DNA of 64,000 nucleotides, taken from NCBI GenBank assembly GCA_003352285.1, contig QQVN01000003.1, positions 1 to 64,000 on the forward strand, given 5' to 3'. This stretch comes from Thermoproteota archaeon (GTDB lineage: Archaea > Thermoproteota > Nitrososphaeria > Nitrososphaerales > Nitrosopumilaceae). This document shows, in pieces, positions 9,252 to 54,829 of this stretch. Position 1 is the first letter of the stretch, and every line of letters starts with the position of its first letter. The position numbers and the translations under genes are program-made. The notes under the pieces are model-generated. The model did not search any database and had not been told where the DNA came from. It was given only the letters and a program-made list of their open reading frames with translations.

Positions 9252-9352
9252 GCCGGGGTCGCCTAGCCTGGTAGGGCGCGCGCCTGGAAATTGATAACCA
9301 TAAAGCGCGTTCTCGCAAGGGAACGGGAGTTCAAATCTCCCTCCCGGCGCCA
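9252..9352 (+). tRNA. tRNA-Ser(GGA) with anticodon-loop intron
   Basis: Acceptor strands 9252-9258 and 9342-9348 pair over 7 bp (last pair G-U), followed by discriminator G and an encoded CCA at 9350-9352. The T arm is gggag-ttcaaat-ctccc. A long variable arm (ttctc-gcaa-gggaa) marks a class II tRNA. The anticodon stem cgcgc/gcgcg encloses 21 nt instead of 7, so about 14 nt of intron sit just after the anticodon GGA. That anticodon reads UCC/UCU serine codons. Removal needs the splicing endonuclease, encoded at 56309. Confidence 0.93.
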
Positions 9353-29796: not shown

Positions 29797-31409
29797 TTCT
29801 TTCCAAAAGTCTCACAATGGTAATTCTGCAAATGATTCAGGATGTCCTCTTGAGCTATCTCGTATCGATGCTGTTTGTCCTCATAGCAGTGAAACTCGAT
29901 GTGTTGCAGATTGTATCTTTTATCAAAGTAAAGACTCAACCTTGCAGAAAACCCATCATCGTCTCCTGCATGATATGACACACGATCGCCGCTTACAGAA
30001 GAATTCATTTCACCATATTGGGCATAGAATGCATCAACTACGGGATTATTCATGATATCTTCAAGCGTAGATTGAGTAATGTGACAGACCTCAACGCATA
30101 CATCATCGCATGCAACATCTGGATATGCAGGATCGTTTCTGCATGCAGATGCACACTCATTGTATGCACCACCCATCAGGGAGCACTGCAGTGGATCCTC
30201 AAGATTGATACACTCTTTTGATTCTGATATCCACTTGCCATCGTATATTCCACACAAATCCCTTGGAAGATTATCAGTTGCAGGTCCACCAAGGCGCAAT
30301 GCTGCCCATCCCCTGTTGATTAGCTCAATCACAGTATCAGGATAGACGCATGCTATCATCATTCTGTCTAGTCTTGGCACTGCATGATATCCATCACGGC
30401 ACTGTATCTCAGAGAGTGCAGCGCCGTTTTTTATCTGCTTTAATGGGGGAAGAGATCCATGCAATTTTGTAATGTCTTCTTTTTGTGAATAATACAAATA
30501 GACATCAAAGTGCGAATGATCTTTTGTCTCATCAACCCACTCATGGAACCTGTTTTGGTTTAGCGAATCTATCATCTCTTGCTTTTTTTGCTCCATCCAT
30601 GTTTCCCCCTTGTACTTGTAGAAGAGATCTGTCTGGTCTGGGTTGCATGGAACTATGCTCTGTATTTCTGCATTAAAGCACGGATGAGAAGACTCTGCCA
30701 GTATTGGAATTGTAAAGCTGACTTGCTCCACCAGACTTGCATCAATTCTTGCCTCCTCTATGGTAACTATCAGCTCATGCTTTCCTGAAAGAAAGACTGG
30801 GCCTTTTATTTTTGGAGTGTCATATTCTGGCAGAATAATTCCAGCAGCAATTGATGCAGTTGTACCATAGTACGTGGTACATTTCCATAGCTCATCCTCT
30901 GGACATCCAAATATTGGCTGTATGATAATCTCTAGTGTTCCGTCTGGCACATCGTAAATGTTTCTTGCCAAGAGGTCTCCGTCTTTGCTAATCTGTAAGC
31001 GTAAAATGACATCAGTTGCAGTCTGGTTTGTCAGCTCATCATATGCCCTGATGATTAGTTGTCCCTCTTCTGGTGCATCTTGGGCATACCCTGCAGAGAC
31101 TGCCATTTTGTGTGTTTTTCCTTGGGAAAAGTCACAGACCTGATAGCACTGTGAAGTGCACACCCTGTCTGCATTGCCATCTGACATTCCTCTGCAGCTA
31201 CTACATTCTAGGTATACGCCATTGAACTGCTTGCAGTAATTCTGGAATTCCTCTTCATTCTCATAGCTTGGTTCCTCACATTCCAGAGTCGATGCAACCC
31301 AATTTCCAAATTTTTTCTCGCAAATTTCCTTTGCAGAGTCTGCATAGGCATCATGAATCGGCAACAAGAATGCTAATCCTGCAATGATTGCTATGTACTG
31401 TAACTTCAT
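29793..31409 (-). CDS. Exported protein with duplicated Cys-rich module
   Basis: The 538-residue product has a cleavable-looking signal (residues 1-23, ending DAYA). Two homologous Cys-rich modules follow the pattern C-x6-W-x6-EC...C-x3-GxY-x-EC-x-S-x-CR...C-x3-C-x2-VC at residues 30-92 and 386-442. Between them lie a beta-rich region and, at 333-369, a C-x-DG...ACV...LINRGWA module shared with the Kazal fusion. Cys spacing resembles trypsin-inhibitor-like (TIL) domains. A clear ribosome binding site (ggaggaagaa) precedes the ATG. It overlaps both neighbours by 4 bp. Confidence 0.8.
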   Translation of the reverse strand: MKLQYIAIIAGLAFLLPIHDAYADSAKEICEKKFGNWVASTLECEEPSYENEEEFQNYCKQFNGVYLECSSCRGMSDGNADRVCTSQCYQVCDFSQGKTHKMAVSAGYAQDAPEEGQLIIRAYDELTNQTATDVILRLQISKDGDLLARNIYDVPDGTLEIIIQPIFGCPEDELWKCTTYYGTTASIAAGIILPEYDTPKIKGPVFLSGKHELIVTIEEARIDASLVEQVSFTIPILAESSHPCFNAEIQSIVPCNPDQTDLFYKYKGETWMEQKKQEMIDSLNQNRFHEWVDETKDHSHFDVYLYYSQKEDITKLHGSLPPLKQIKNGAALSEIQCRDGYHAVPRLDRMMIACVYPDTVIELINRGWAALRLGGPATDNLPRDLCGIYDGKWISESKECINLEDPLQCSLMGGAYNECASACRNDPAYPDVACDDVCVEVCHITQSTLEDIMNNPVVDAFYAQYGEMNSSVSGDRVSYHAGDDDGFSARLSLYFDKRYNLQHIEFHCYEDKQHRYEIAQEDILNHLQNYHCETFGKK

Positions 31410-49608: not shown

Positions 49609-51651
49609 GTGGGCATTGCCCATTTAGGGATGGGCGCTAATCCTTTCACTCAGTTAGTTTTTGATCTCTTCATCATTGCCGCCATTCTAATTACTGCTTA
49701 CACAGCCAATTTCTATTATCTTGCATTTCTCTCATCAAAGCGAAAAGATGCGCTTGGTGTAATGGTATCTGATGAGCCCACAATTACAGTTCAACTTCCA
49801 ATCTATAATGAAAAGTATGTTGCCGCTCGTTTAGTTAATGCAGTATGTGCAATGGATTATCCAAAAGAAAAAATGCGAATTATGGTCCTTGATGATTCTG
49901 ATGACGATACCGTTGAACTCTTAGGAAATTTAGTTGAAGAGCGAAAAAAAGAAGGATTTCAAATAGAACACGTCAGACGAGGAACTAGGAGTGGCTACAA
50001 AGCAGGTGCTCTAAAACACGCGATGAAATCTACTGATACTGAACTAGTAGCAATATTTGATGCCGATTTTATTCCTCCAAGATGGTTCCTCAAAAAAGCA
50101 ATACCTCACTTTGTAACTTCAAACATAGGATTAATTCAATGCCGTTGGGGACATGTAAATGAAAATTATTCTGCCATCACTCAAGCTCAAGCACTTAGTT
50201 TGGACTTTCACTTTTTAATAGAACAAAAGGCAAAGAGTAACTCTCATCTTTTTATGAATTTTAATGGAACGGCTGGAATCTGGAGAAGAGAATGTATTGA
50301 GGATGCTGGTGGGTGGCATACTGCCACACTTGTTGAAGATCTTGACTTGAGCTATAGAGCTCAAATGAAAGGATGGAAATGCCTCTTCTTACCTGATATT
50401 GTCGTTGATGCAGAGCTTCCAGTCCAGATGAATGCTGCAAAGAGGCAACAGTTTAGATGGGCAAAAGGTTCAATTCAATGTGCAATAAAATTACTTGGAG
50501 AAATTGCATTAAAAAGAAAGATTGCAATTGAAGCAAAAATCCAAGCCTTTATTCAATTAACTCGCCATATTGTTTTTCCACTAATGCTTGTACAGTTTCT
50601 ATCCTTGCCTGTATTGCTTGCAGCAAACATGAATCTGTATGTTGTCAGCTTTCTTCCTGCATTAACAATTGCAGCATACTTTGCAATGGGTCCTGGCGCA
50701 TATCTTATTGTAATTCAGAAACTCTATCATGAATCTTGGAAATCAAAAGCAAAGGTTCTACCTTCTTTACTTCTTTACAGCGCCGGAATGTCTGTGAATA
50801 ATACAGTTGCGGTATTTGATGCAGTATTGGGTAAGAAGAACGAATTCTTACGAACTCCAAAATATGGTATCATAAAAAACACTGATGATTGGCGTGATAA
50901 AGCATACAATCTACCATTTACCAAAACCACTCTGCTTGAAATCTTCTTTGGCATATACGGCCTATTAGGAATCTTAATCTCGGTTTTTTCTAATAATCCT
51001 GTTTTTGCTCCAATAATAGGAATCCAAACATTGGGATTCTTCTATATTGCTTATCTGAGCCTCTCTCACTCAAGATTTAAAAGAATTAAATCAAGTTCCA
51101 ATCGTGTAGTAACAAAGGCAGAGAAGATGGCAAATTACGGATACAAACTTGCAATGATAGGAATTGTTGGAATAATCGTGTTTGGTGCCTTTATGGCTTT
51201 TGATGGATACGGAAAGGACGTATATCCATTGGATCTTTCAAGAGGTTATCTTAGTGAGATAAGCCGAGCTACTGAACCCCAAGCAGTCATGGTAAATGTA
51301 CTTGAAATAAAAGATCAACTTCCAAAAGAAGGAAACCCCGTCTGGATATTTGCAACTGCAGAAACTGACTTTGGACGAATGCAATCCTCCTTGGACAGCA
51401 TGTTTGCAACTGCAGAAAAAATTTCTTCATCTCCTAGAGATAGTTCTGCATATCACACTGGTATGACAAACATCAAACACAGTGCAATTGAATTACGTGA
51501 AAATATCATGAATGCAACTCCTTACATGTACGTTAGTGTTCAAAATATTATCTTTAGTACAATGTGGATTGCAGCAATTTTAGGAATATTTGCCGTATTG
51601 AAAAGAAAGAACCAACAACTCAAGGCATACGATCTTGCTAATGATGTCTAG
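49609..51651 (+). CDS. Membrane glycosyltransferase family 2
   Basis: The protein has 680 residues from GTG 49609. An N-terminal membrane helix precedes a GT-A domain with QLPIYNEKYVAARL, DDSDDDT, the DxD motif at 151-153 (DAD), VEDLDLSYR and QQFRW at 280-284 (Q/RxxRW), the set seen in processive cellulose/hyaluronan-synthase-like enzymes. Six or so further helices lie beyond residue 300, and an outside region sits before the last helix. It probably makes or exports a surface polysaccharide. A TATA box (aaatataaat, about 49593-49602) is too close to the GTG; ATG 49630, seven codons on, fits better as the start. Confidence 0.88.
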   Translation: MGIAHLGMGANPFTQLVFDLFIIAAILITAYTANFYYLAFLSSKRKDALGVMVSDEPTITVQLPIYNEKYVAARLVNAVCAMDYPKEKMRIMVLDDSDDDTVELLGNLVEERKKEGFQIEHVRRGTRSGYKAGALKHAMKSTDTELVAIFDADFIPPRWFLKKAIPHFVTSNIGLIQCRWGHVNENYSAITQAQALSLDFHFLIEQKAKSNSHLFMNFNGTAGIWRRECIEDAGGWHTATLVEDLDLSYRAQMKGWKCLFLPDIVVDAELPVQMNAAKRQQFRWAKGSIQCAIKLLGEIALKRKIAIEAKIQAFIQLTRHIVFPLMLVQFLSLPVLLAANMNLYVVSFLPALTIAAYFAMGPGAYLIVIQKLYHESWKSKAKVLPSLLLYSAGMSVNNTVAVFDAVLGKKNEFLRTPKYGIIKNTDDWRDKAYNLPFTKTTLLEIFFGIYGLLGILISVFSNNPVFAPIIGIQTLGFFYIAYLSLSHSRFKRIKSSSNRVVTKAEKMANYGYKLAMIGIVGIIVFGAFMAFDGYGKDVYPLDLSRGYLSEISRATEPQAVMVNVLEIKDQLPKEGNPVWIFATAETDFGRMQSSLDSMFATAEKISSSPRDSSAYHTGMTNIKHSAIELRENIMNATPYMYVSVQNIIFSTMWIAAILGIFAVLKRKNQQLKAYDLANDV

Positions 51652-53123
51652 GTAATTCCAAGCTCTTTTCTTAACTCGTCTACTCCTCTAATTCCAAAAA
51701 TATCTCTGACCTGCTGCAGTCTGATTGATTCTTTTAGAAGGTCTCTACCCAGATTGTTTGATAGTATGTTAAAAACATCTGAAAATCTAATCTCCCATCT
51801 GTCTGCACAATCAAGAATCTTGCTAACTGCCCACTGTCTTACCTCATGAGGAACTGGCATCTTTTCTTGTGATTCAATGGAAATCTTATCAAACAAATTC
51901 ACTATCTCTGCAGTTTGAGATGCCATACTCTCAAGGTCTTTAATCTCTCCATATTTTGATTCAGAAGTCATCCTAATTGTTGATTGGTACTCTGATAGTT
52001 TTAGCAAAGCCATCATCTCTTTTGATGAATCACTAGATGCCTTGTTTGTTACATTCTTAATTCCTTGTAATTCCTGGAAGACCTTGTCAGTCTTTCTGTG
52101 AAACTCAGAACTGGCATCTTCTGATCTCTTGACCAAATCTGACAATGTAGATATCTTCTGCTCTATCGTGTTGGTTTTGTTATACACATTATCCTTGAAA
52201 TCAGAGAAATCACTCTGAACAGATTTTAGATTTTCACCCATAAATGCAGTTGCCTCAGATCTCTTTACCAGGGAGTTGATTTCGCCCTCTAAATTCTGAA
52301 TTTTGCCGCTGAGATTTAGGAGTGATTCTGCCTTGGATGATATTGCCTGAAATTGATTTTTTAGGCCATCAATTACCGTTCCCAAAGAATCTATCTTCTC
52401 TGCGCGGGTAGCTATTGACTCAATCTGTTTTTGTATGCTTGTGATCTCAGATTTAATCTGTGATGTAGAATCCATTTTTTCTGACATTTTTTGCAATTCT
52501 GATTTTAGATTTGAAATGTCAGTGCTCTGAATCTTACTTGTTTGCTCTGTAATTGTCTTTAATGTCTCTTTTAGTTTATTTAATTCTGAATTTATTGAAG
52601 ATGCATTCTCTGTCTTTGCTGAAACTTTTCTTAAATCATCTCGAACTTCGTCCACTCTTTGCGCAATTTTGATTATCATTTGAGAATTATTCTTAATCGA
52701 ATCCATGCTCTCTGAAACCTGTTGAGATAGTTTAGCAGACTCTGGAGATGATTTCTGAACATCTTCAATTTTTTTAAGCTCTTCTTGTAATCTGTTTGTC
52801 TGATCATTAATTTTTGAAATTATGTTGGAGTGATTTCTTACCTCACTTAATCCAGAAAATAACTTTTGAGTATCTTCTTCTAAAATGTTAATTTGCTTTG
52901 ATTGTTTTTGCATATGTTCAATAGCTGTTGTTAATGTATCGATCATTCCTTTCATTGAGATAAGCACCTTTTGATTATCGGCAAAAATCTTTGTCATTGA
53001 TTTAATTTCTTTTGATAATGTCTTTGTTGTATCTGATACGGTTGCAACTTTTTTTAATAGTGCAGCTTGTGTGGGTTCCTTTTTTGTAGTCTTTTTTGTT
53101 GCTTTCGTTGTCTTTCCAGCCAC
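51648..53123 (-). CDS. Long coiled-coil protein
   Basis: The 491-residue soluble protein has a Lys-rich N-terminus (TTKATKKTTKK), then about 350 residues of Leu/Ile/Ser heptads with repeated LNKLKETL / LKSELQKMSEKM-like units, and a globular C-terminal domain of about 75 residues (VRQWAVSKILDCADRWEIRF, LQQVRDIFGIRGVDELRKELG). It resembles SMC-like or chemoreceptor-like rods but lacks ATPase and membrane parts. A structural or DNA/cell-organising role is a guess. Overlaps the convergent glycosyltransferase gene by 4 bp. Confidence 0.8.
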   Translation of the reverse strand: MAGKTTKATKKTTKKEPTQAALLKKVATVSDTTKTLSKEIKSMTKIFADNQKVLISMKGMIDTLTTAIEHMQKQSKQINILEEDTQKLFSGLSEVRNHSNIISKINDQTNRLQEELKKIEDVQKSSPESAKLSQQVSESMDSIKNNSQMIIKIAQRVDEVRDDLRKVSAKTENASSINSELNKLKETLKTITEQTSKIQSTDISNLKSELQKMSEKMDSTSQIKSEITSIQKQIESIATRAEKIDSLGTVIDGLKNQFQAISSKAESLLNLSGKIQNLEGEINSLVKRSEATAFMGENLKSVQSDFSDFKDNVYNKTNTIEQKISTLSDLVKRSEDASSEFHRKTDKVFQELQGIKNVTNKASSDSSKEMMALLKLSEYQSTIRMTSESKYGEIKDLESMASQTAEIVNLFDKISIESQEKMPVPHEVRQWAVSKILDCADRWEIRFSDVFNILSNNLGRDLLKESIRLQQVRDIFGIRGVDELRKELGIT

Positions 53124-53182: not shown

Positions 53183-53290
53183 CTAATTGTTTACTACTTC
53201 TGGTTCGTGCAACAACTCGTGAAATGTCTTTTCAGCTAGACCGTTCATGCTCTCTACAAAGTTTTTTGGGCAGTATTCACATCTTATCAT
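53183..53290 (-). CDS. 35-residue zinc-finger-like mini-protein
   Basis: ATG at 53290 to TAG at 53183 encodes 35 residues with Cys4-X2-Cys7-X16-His24... His28 (HxxxH), a lengthened C2H2 pattern (IRCEYCPKNF, then FHELLHEPE). Its promoter carries a perfect dyad (53295-53311) just before the ATG and a TATA-like tattaata (53313-53320). The tight regulatory layout supports it being a real gene. Confidence 0.7.
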   Translation of the reverse strand: MIRCEYCPKNFVESMNGLAEKTFHELLHEPEVVNN

Positions 53291-53294
53291 AAAT

Positions 53295-53311
53295 TACGGT
53301 AATGTACCGTA
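53295..53311 (-). promoter_or_regulatory. Operator-like dyad of the zinc-finger gene
   Basis: TACGGTA-atg-TACCGTA is a perfect 7-bp inverted repeat placed between the TATA-like sequence and the start codon at 53290. A repressor bound here would block initiation; metal-responsive or self-regulation is plausible. Confidence 0.6.
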
Positions 53312-53345
53312 CTATTAATAAGATGGTGATTGTGTTCTTACCAAA

Positions 53346-53408
53346 GAGTAGTCAGATACCCCAGGTGTCTTTCATCATGATTCAGATCACCTAATCATCA
53401 TTCTACAG
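53346..53408 (-). ncRNA. C/D box guide sRNA
   Basis: Read on the minus strand: a GTAG half-stem (53403-53406), box C ATGATGA (53395-53401), a 9-nt guide, box D' CTGA (53382-53385), a 3-nt spacer, box C' ATGATGA (53372-53378), a 16-nt guide (53356-53371), box D CTGA (53352-53355), and the closing CTAC half-stem (53348-53351). All four boxes, the short D'-C' spacer and the terminal stem fit archaeal 2'-O-methylation guide RNAs. A TATA-like ctttatt lies about 25 bp upstream. Targets are not assigned. Confidence 0.78.
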
Positions 53409-53512
53409 ATGTTTTTTACAATGCAAGAATAAAGACGTTAAACATTTAGCTCTTCATAAGATAGTTCGCTCTTCTGTTAGTCTTTTTAAAGTCAATAAAA
53501 TACATCACATCA

Positions 53513-54829
53513 TTGAGAGATTATTTTTTACAAACTGGTGCCGATGAAATTCAGGATTCTATCAGTCAAAGCTTTTCAAATATTATTGATCAAATTACTC
53601 CGGACCTAAGTCACACGAACTTTGTTACTGACTTGGCTATTATCATGATAATAGGTGCAGTAGTTACTTTAGCATTCTTCAAAATTAGGCAACCACTAAT
53701 CATTGGTTATCTCTTTGCAGGAATGCTTATTGGGCCACTTTCTCCATTGTGGGCTTGGCTACTTCCTGAAGTAGAACCTTCTAGTCATTTGGAGGGAATC
53801 GGCATACTTGCAGATATTTCCGCGTTGAATCTTTTTGCTGAGATTGGCGTAATCTTGTTACTATTTGTTATAGGGATAGAATTTCCATATGCAAAGATCA
53901 AATCTATTGGTAAAGTGGCAGTAGGGGTCGGAACCATTGGATTGTTTTCAACACTAGGAGTGGTATTTTTAACTGCAAATTCATTTGGTATGAATTTTAT
54001 GGATTCTTTGTTTTTGGGTGCTGCGCTATCGATTAGCAGTACTGCAGTAATTGTAAAGATTCTGACTGACATGGGCAAAATTAAGAGAGAATCATCAATT
54101 CTGGTTTTGGGTATATTGATTATCGAAGACGTCGTGGCCGTAATTTTGATTTCTACATTACAATCTATTGCACTAGTCGGAAGTGTTTCAATAGAAGGAA
54201 TCGTGGTTGTGGTCTTAGTAGCAACTGGATTGATAGTCGGCACATTTACAATTGGTACAAGAATTATTCCTCAACTTATTGACAGAGTAGCAGCTGCAGA
54301 ACATCGAGAAATTCTACTTTTGAGTGTATTGGGACTCTGCTTTGGATACTCGTTACTTGCAAATGTTGTCGGTCTGTCTGTTGCAATAGGGGCCTTTTTA
54401 GCAGGGGTTTTGGTAGCAGAGTCAAAGTCTGCTGAAGTCTCAAAGATAATATCCAGTCCAATTAAAGACATGTTTGTAGCAATTTTCTTCATTTCTGTAG
54501 GTGCATTAATGGATGTTAGTCAAGTCGGAGATTACATTATTTTGGCTCTGGTTCTAATTTTGGTAGCAACTTTTATGAAATTTGGAGGAAATTTACTAGG
54601 GAATTTCATTTTCAGACAGAAAAGAAGAAAATCACTACGAACTGCTTTCACACTTGCTGCACCAAGAGGAGAATTCTCAATTGTAATTGTCAAAACTGGG
54701 GTTGACATAGGTGCAGTTAGCAGCTTTGTGTTTCCTCTAATTGGTTTAATTTCAATTATTACGGCGTTCATTTCGCCATTTTTAATAAAGGCCAGTGACA
54801 AGATAGTTCCAAAACTCAAGGAAGATTAG
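53513..54829 (+). CDS. Cation:proton antiporter, CPA2 family
   Basis: The 438-residue protein has about 12 transmembrane helices after a soluble 35-residue N-terminus. QPLIIGYLFAGMLIGP, LLLFVIGIEFPYAKIKSIG, GAALSISSTAVIVKIL and IEDVVAVILIS follow KefB/NapA-type Na+(K+)/H+ exchangers, with the conserved Asp in the last motif. There is no RCK/TrkA-N domain at the C-terminus. TTG start about 27 bp after a ctttttaaag promoter element. The next gene starts 2 bp after the stop and may encode a soluble partner. Confidence 0.92.
   Translation: MRDYFLQTGADEIQDSISQSFSNIIDQITPDLSHTNFVTDLAIIMIIGAVVTLAFFKIRQPLIIGYLFAGMLIGPLSPLWAWLLPEVEPSSHLEGIGILADISALNLFAEIGVILLLFVIGIEFPYAKIKSIGKVAVGVGTIGLFSTLGVVFLTANSFGMNFMDSLFLGAALSISSTAVIVKILTDMGKIKRESSILVLGILIIEDVVAVILISTLQSIALVGSVSIEGIVVVVLVATGLIVGTFTIGTRIIPQLIDRVAAAEHREILLLSVLGLCFGYSLLANVVGLSVAIGAFLAGVLVAESKSAEVSKIISSPIKDMFVAIFFISVGALMDVSQVGDYIILALVLILVATFMKFGGNLLGNFIFRQKRRKSLRTAFTLAAPRGEFSIVIVKTGVDIGAVSSFVFPLIGLISIITAFISPFLIKASDKIVPKLKED

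Follow-up and report, generated by a model that had tools for sequence, protein, structure and literature searches.

Judged from its sequence, the locus at 53345–53407 on the minus strand of the window (the whole 64,000-nt stretch of Thermoproteota archaeon DNA analyzed here) is an archaeal C/D box sRNA gene with a variant feature. In the explanation that we consider best, and highly probable as a whole, the sRNA would be transcribed from its own promoter and would direct methylation of LSU 2542, and its D′ stretch would be an anti-guide that the docking target displaces. An earlier note on this DNA had proposed a C/D box methylation guide RNA at this place, and the assignment is strongly supported by the boxes, by covariation of the stem and by covariation between guide and rRNA.

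Architecture of the sRNA and its surroundings

Read from 53407 to 53345, the DNA has the order TGTAGA-ATGATGA(C)-TTAGGTGAT-CTGA(D′)-ATC-ATGATGA(C′)-AAGACACCTGGGGTAT-CTGA(D)-CTACTCT, which as RNA is UGUAGA-AUGAUGA-UUAGGUGAU-CUGA-AUC-AUGAUGA-AAGACACCUGGGGUAU-CUGA-CUACUCU. This interval comprises the core, the terminal stem and flanks, was delimited by pattern and family-model matches, and is kept in relatives. All elements lie on the minus strand. Box C (ATGATGA, 53395–53401) is followed by the 9-nt D′ stretch (53386–53394), box D′ (CTGA, 53382–53385), a 3-nt spacer (ATC, 53379–53381), box C′ (ATGATGA, 53372–53378), the 16-nt D guide (53356–53371) and box D (CTGA, 53352–53355). The boxes thus conform in sequence and order to C RUGAUGA, D′ CUGA, C′ RUGAUGA and D CUGA, and beside boxes C and D the arms GTAG (53403–53406) and CTAC (53348–53351) form a 4-bp terminal (K-turn) stem. 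The complete box set, the 3-nt D′–C′ spacing, the 4-bp stem and the intergenic position described in the earlier note, which only implied the strand, were all recovered, the last of these between a minus-strand ORF at 51648–53123 and a plus-strand antiporter-like ORF at 53513–54829. The C-D′-C′-D pattern occurs once in the window and in none of 100 dinucleotide-preserving shuffles; it also occurs once in the 1.69-Mb genome, where a reversed-pattern control gave no match.

The TATA-like element that had been claimed upstream is TTTATT at 53428–53433 on the minus strand, 27–32 nt upstream of box C. Its position is conserved: in 83 of 119 distinct relatives a TATA-like word begins 30–36 nt upstream of box C (mean in shuffles, 4.7), and in a GC-rich relative (L042) CTCTTTATT is still prominent there. 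The sRNA very likely has its own promoter.

The machinery of the class is encoded in the same genome, which contains a fibrillarin gene (E 5e-86), an ORF directly upstream of it that reads by eye as Nop5, and two L7Ae-family genes. At its C terminus the Nop5-like ORF (L102, 6–1502) carries a tail made of RGNRDFRRSDRGES repeats.

Several features of the window were observed alongside the sRNA. An unlisted 35-aa ORF on the minus strand (53183–53290; MIRCEYCPKNFVESMNGLAEKTFHELLHEPEVVNN) has a C2H2 zinc-finger-like pattern and matches no Pfam family above cut-off; most relatives in which the gene order is preserved have it too, downstream of the sRNA. Just upstream of its start lies a conserved palindrome, TACGGTACATTACCGTA (53295–53311), with TATTAATA before it; the palindrome is found in the same place in many relatives and looks like an operator or a transcription start site element. 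A 98-nt tRNA on the plus strand (9252–9349), found by Rfam (40.5 bits) and not by ARAGORN, is possibly an intron-containing gene.

A conserved family in ammonia-oxidizing archaea

A DNA search found the sRNA in 41 of 101 genomes. A pattern search of genome contigs, in which the D-guide core YYUGGGGUAU was required, returned at least 120 stretches, and among the matches listed nearly all belong to Nitrosopumilus, Nitrosarchaeum, Nitrosotalea, Nitrosopelagicus, Nitrosotenuis or other Thaumarchaeota; the window would thus come from an ammonia oxidizer of this group. With a covariance model built from 31 members, matches at E ≤ 0.01 were obtained in 239 of 400 genomes of the class, the weakest matches possibly having arisen by chance. 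When 60 distinct stem sequences were compared, every cell of the terminal stem was paired (100%), 45 cells having changed on both sides, and slid registers paired at most 51%; covariance in relatives, which had been named as a check on the candidate, is present. The core letters of box C are invariant in 60 distinct rows, and many relatives have a degenerate box C′ (for example, ATGTAGA).

Some matches were not accepted. One at 30327–30370 lies inside a 538-aa ORF (16.8 bits) and has no box set, and a contig labeled Verrucomicrobiia (L113) gave a match with neither a box C′ nor a matching stem. Model matches below about 25 bits (G002, G003, G096, G213 and G283, and the second matches of G081 and G108) were not taken as members.

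No Rfam family (Rfam 15) reaches its curated gathering score at the locus, where the best archaeal model, sR2, scores 25.2 bits against a gathering score of 42. At a permissive threshold most matches are to C/D box families. Many of these are archaeal sR families whose models match on the same strand and with the same ends. The locus is a real small-RNA gene of ammonia-oxidizing archaea and represents a new family.

The D guide and its target in 23S rRNA

The D guide (AAGACACCTGGGGTAT; RNA AAGACACCUGGGGUAU) pairs with UACCCCAGG of the genome's own 23S rRNA. Its segment CCTGGGGTA (53365–53357; RNA CCUGGGGUA) makes nine Watson–Crick pairs with 23S 2539–2547, and the fifth base from box D (53360) lies opposite LSU 2542, so that at least nine consecutive pairs span the N+5 position; the base immediately beside box D forms a U–U mismatch. 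The nine-consecutive-pair criterion and the N+5 rule for C/D sRNAs are those of a survey of archaeal C/D sRNAs (PMC4644070).

The 23S site is the best match of the D guide family-wide among 16S, 23S and tRNA. Since 12 of 300 column-permuted D guides find an equally good site somewhere, the complementarity alone is not conclusive. The target is settled by three further observations. The core YYUGGGGUAU is present in nearly all relatives found by similarity and also in those found by the pattern, which requires it, and its variants remain pairable: CUUGGGG and UCUGGGG place a U opposite a 23S G, and in most UCUGGGG members the adjoining position is a C, paired with the following G of the 23S. 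Fifteen genomes of the window's family share an identical 23S target, UUACCCCAGGG. Finally, model matches in a sister family, f8, have the guide CUAGGGUA (RNA ACUAGGGUA) beside box D, from which a 23S change of CCCCAGG to CCCUAGG was predicted before the 23S was looked up. The f8 23S reads UUACCCUAGGG in seven of seven genomes (UUACCCUAGG), for five of which the guide is known, and the 23S of two other families (f2 and f19) has UUACCCCAGGG, as in the window's family. Guide and rRNA have thus changed together.

By the N+5 rule, the D guide very probably directs methylation of LSU 2542, a C. Through the invariant GGGAUAACAGG motif we take this nucleotide to be E. coli 2441, which belongs to helix 74 and is situated at the base of the peptidyl transferase center. 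The statement that the D guide would define an rRNA target five nucleotides from box D is thereby upheld, and the proposed matching of both guides to the genome's own 16S, 23S and tRNAs succeeded for the D guide (23S 2539–2547) and failed for the D′ stretch.

The D′ stretch and the internal helix

For the D′ stretch (TTAGGTGAT; RNA UUAGGUGAU), the earlier note had also foreseen an rRNA or tRNA site (target atcacctaa), a claim that is not supported. Compared with the genome's own 16S, 23S and 30 tRNA genes, the stretch finds nothing above permuted guides (103 of 300 permutations do as well), and when the D′ stretches of eleven genomes were compared with their own 23S, again no site beat permuted guides. 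A 7-bp match in the window's own genome to the 16S 3′ end (ATCACCTCC) was rejected as it is not kept in relatives. Complementarity of the D′ guide to a second RNA site, common though not obligatory in the class, was thus not found here. Of 489 archaeal C/D sRNAs surveyed elsewhere, one-third lack significant rRNA complementarity altogether (PMC4644070).

Folding instead pairs UUAGGUG of the D′ stretch (53394–53388) with CACCUGG of the D guide (53367–53361). In an ungapped alignment of 68 distinct relatives, these seven pairs are formed in 91.2% of cells, and sliding the partner by one to three columns leaves 19–47% paired. Five of the seven pairs have changed on both sides, in 43 cells in all, and the outer pairs are broken in at least nine sequences. 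None of 500 shuffles reached the pairing percentage or the covariation score; the shuffles ignore kinship among the alignment rows, a weakness partly offset by the slid registers and by the comparison with f8. The same helix emerges from RNAalifold when no structure is supplied.

Lineages with CUUGGGG or UCUGGGG separate the two kinds of pairing. In these the pair between D guide and rRNA is weakened to U–G, and a G to A change in the D′ stretch regains a Watson–Crick pair with the D guide. As the D′ stretch follows the D guide even where the rRNA pair weakens, it is the internal pairing that is kept, and the D′ stretch would be conserved because of its intramolecular pairing with the D guide.

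The helix is absent from f8, which has the same D guide, as judged by a comparison with shuffled D′ stretches: the observed complementarity is equaled by none of 300 shuffles in the window's family and by 29 of 300 in f8. A generic pattern found 39 distinct C/D sRNAs in the phylum, 35 of which have a mean D′:D score of 3.7 (SD 0.8, maximum 5.5), compared with 6.3 for the window's family. Such a helix is rare among the other C/D sRNAs of the phylum. High scores of 7.5–10.5 occur in an unrelated family from other lineages of the phylum (D′ UAGCGGGUAUUU, D AGAUACCCGCU and variants), in which perfectly or nearly complementary guides (GCGGGUAU/AUACCCGC) were observed at G497:C9:65655-65701, G417:C1:553760-553806 and G564:C8:11280-11327, among others. 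With the 16S of the window's genome as proxy, the D′ guide of this family matches 16S at AGAUACCCG.

Four deeper homologues (f19: L265, L269, L270 and L271) keep the D guide. Their D′ stretch lies next to a non-canonical D′ box (AUGA) and matches best, in the one 23S tested, at the P-loop, GCUGGGGCGG, with N+5 on E. coli G2251. Methylation at the G2251 position has been predicted in three other archaea (PMC4644070). It is plausible that the ancestor was a double guide to two partly complementary sites around the peptidyl transferase center, and likewise that the rRNA target of the D′ arm was later lost in the window's family and the arm retained as partner of the D guide.

Proposed mechanism and alternatives

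In the proposed mechanism, the locus would be transcribed from its own promoter into a C/D box sRNA of roughly 60 nt, on whose C/D and C′/D′ motifs L7Ae, Nop5 and fibrillarin would assemble. The D guide would pair with helix 74 of 23S rRNA, leading to 2′-O-methylation of LSU 2542, and the D′ stretch, instead of acting as a second rRNA guide, would pair intramolecularly with the 5′ half of the D guide. The internal helix leaves UAUGG beside box D free, the N+5 base included, and the rRNA could dock there and then displace the anti-guide. Such docking and displacement are allowed by the predicted energies, −8.5 kcal/mol for the internal helix and −18.7 kcal/mol for the guide–rRNA duplex. What we infer from the sequences is that the RNA is expressed, that the RNP assembles, that LSU 2542 is methylated and that the helix takes part in docking and displacement.

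Three other readings bear on parts of this explanation. That the boxes are a chance arrangement with no RNA product, for which the lack of an Rfam match above gathering score might speak, has practically no probability given the conservation across genera, the covariation of the stem, the conserved promoter and the covariation between guide and rRNA. It is improbable, too, that the sRNA is a double guide whose D′ stretch methylates a second site (in a tRNA, 5S, an mRNA or a weak rRNA site), with the D′:D complementarity being incidental. About half of the archaeal C/D sRNAs surveyed are double guides (PMC4644070), and the P-loop match of the f19 D′ stretch points the same way, but the searches of 16S, 23S and tRNA and of the 23S of eleven genomes gave the D′ stretch no site better than permutations, and it changes with the D guide and not with an rRNA site.

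Closer to an even chance, though a little short of it, is that the helix is a folding clamp that aligns the two K-turns of the free RNA and plays no role in choosing or releasing targets. The helix is predicted to be modest beside the guide–rRNA duplex, and with box C′ degenerate in many relatives an extra helix may help assembly. However, other C/D sRNAs of the phylum, and the f8 homologues with the same D guide, manage without it. Beyond the displacement model itself, one can entertain, as a rather doubtful extension, that five-base docking and anti-guide displacement tune how specifically the guide acts, or how the product is released, at a GC-rich site beside the peptidyl transferase center and that guide/anti-guide sRNAs arose repeatedly; as an unrelated sRNA family of the phylum has the same arrangement, it would have arisen more than once.

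Relation to known sRNAs and significance

Most of what is known of archaeal C/D sRNAs comes from hyperthermophiles. In the literature searched, we found no description of them in ammonia-oxidizing archaea, and a guide to the site equivalent to E. coli 2441 may have been predicted earlier in another archaeon. With the archaeal sRNAs sR2 (RF01139), sR9 (RF01312) and snoPyro_CD (RF00095), the window's family shares the box sequences, their order and spacing, the short terminal stem, the N+5 geometry and an rRNA target near the peptidyl transferase center; it differs in having its own guides and in its D′ stretch, whose partner is the D guide and not rRNA. In the unrelated family of the phylum the D′ and D guides are mutually complementary as well, but the guides are other ones and it is D′, not D, that matches rRNA.

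The yeast C/D snoRNA snR38 guides methylation of 25S Gm2815 (PMC5199042). This methylation falls in the same conserved segment, around GGGAUAAC, as that predicted for the window's sRNA. Yeast 2815, which we take to correspond to about E. coli 2446, is nevertheless a different nucleotide, about five further 3′, and common descent is not indicated.

The sRNA thus represents a conserved family with a specific predicted methylation site beside the catalytic center of the ribosome, supported by covariation between guide and rRNA. Its guide/anti-guide helix would offer a natural case in which strand displacement may control the choice or release of targets by a C/D RNP.
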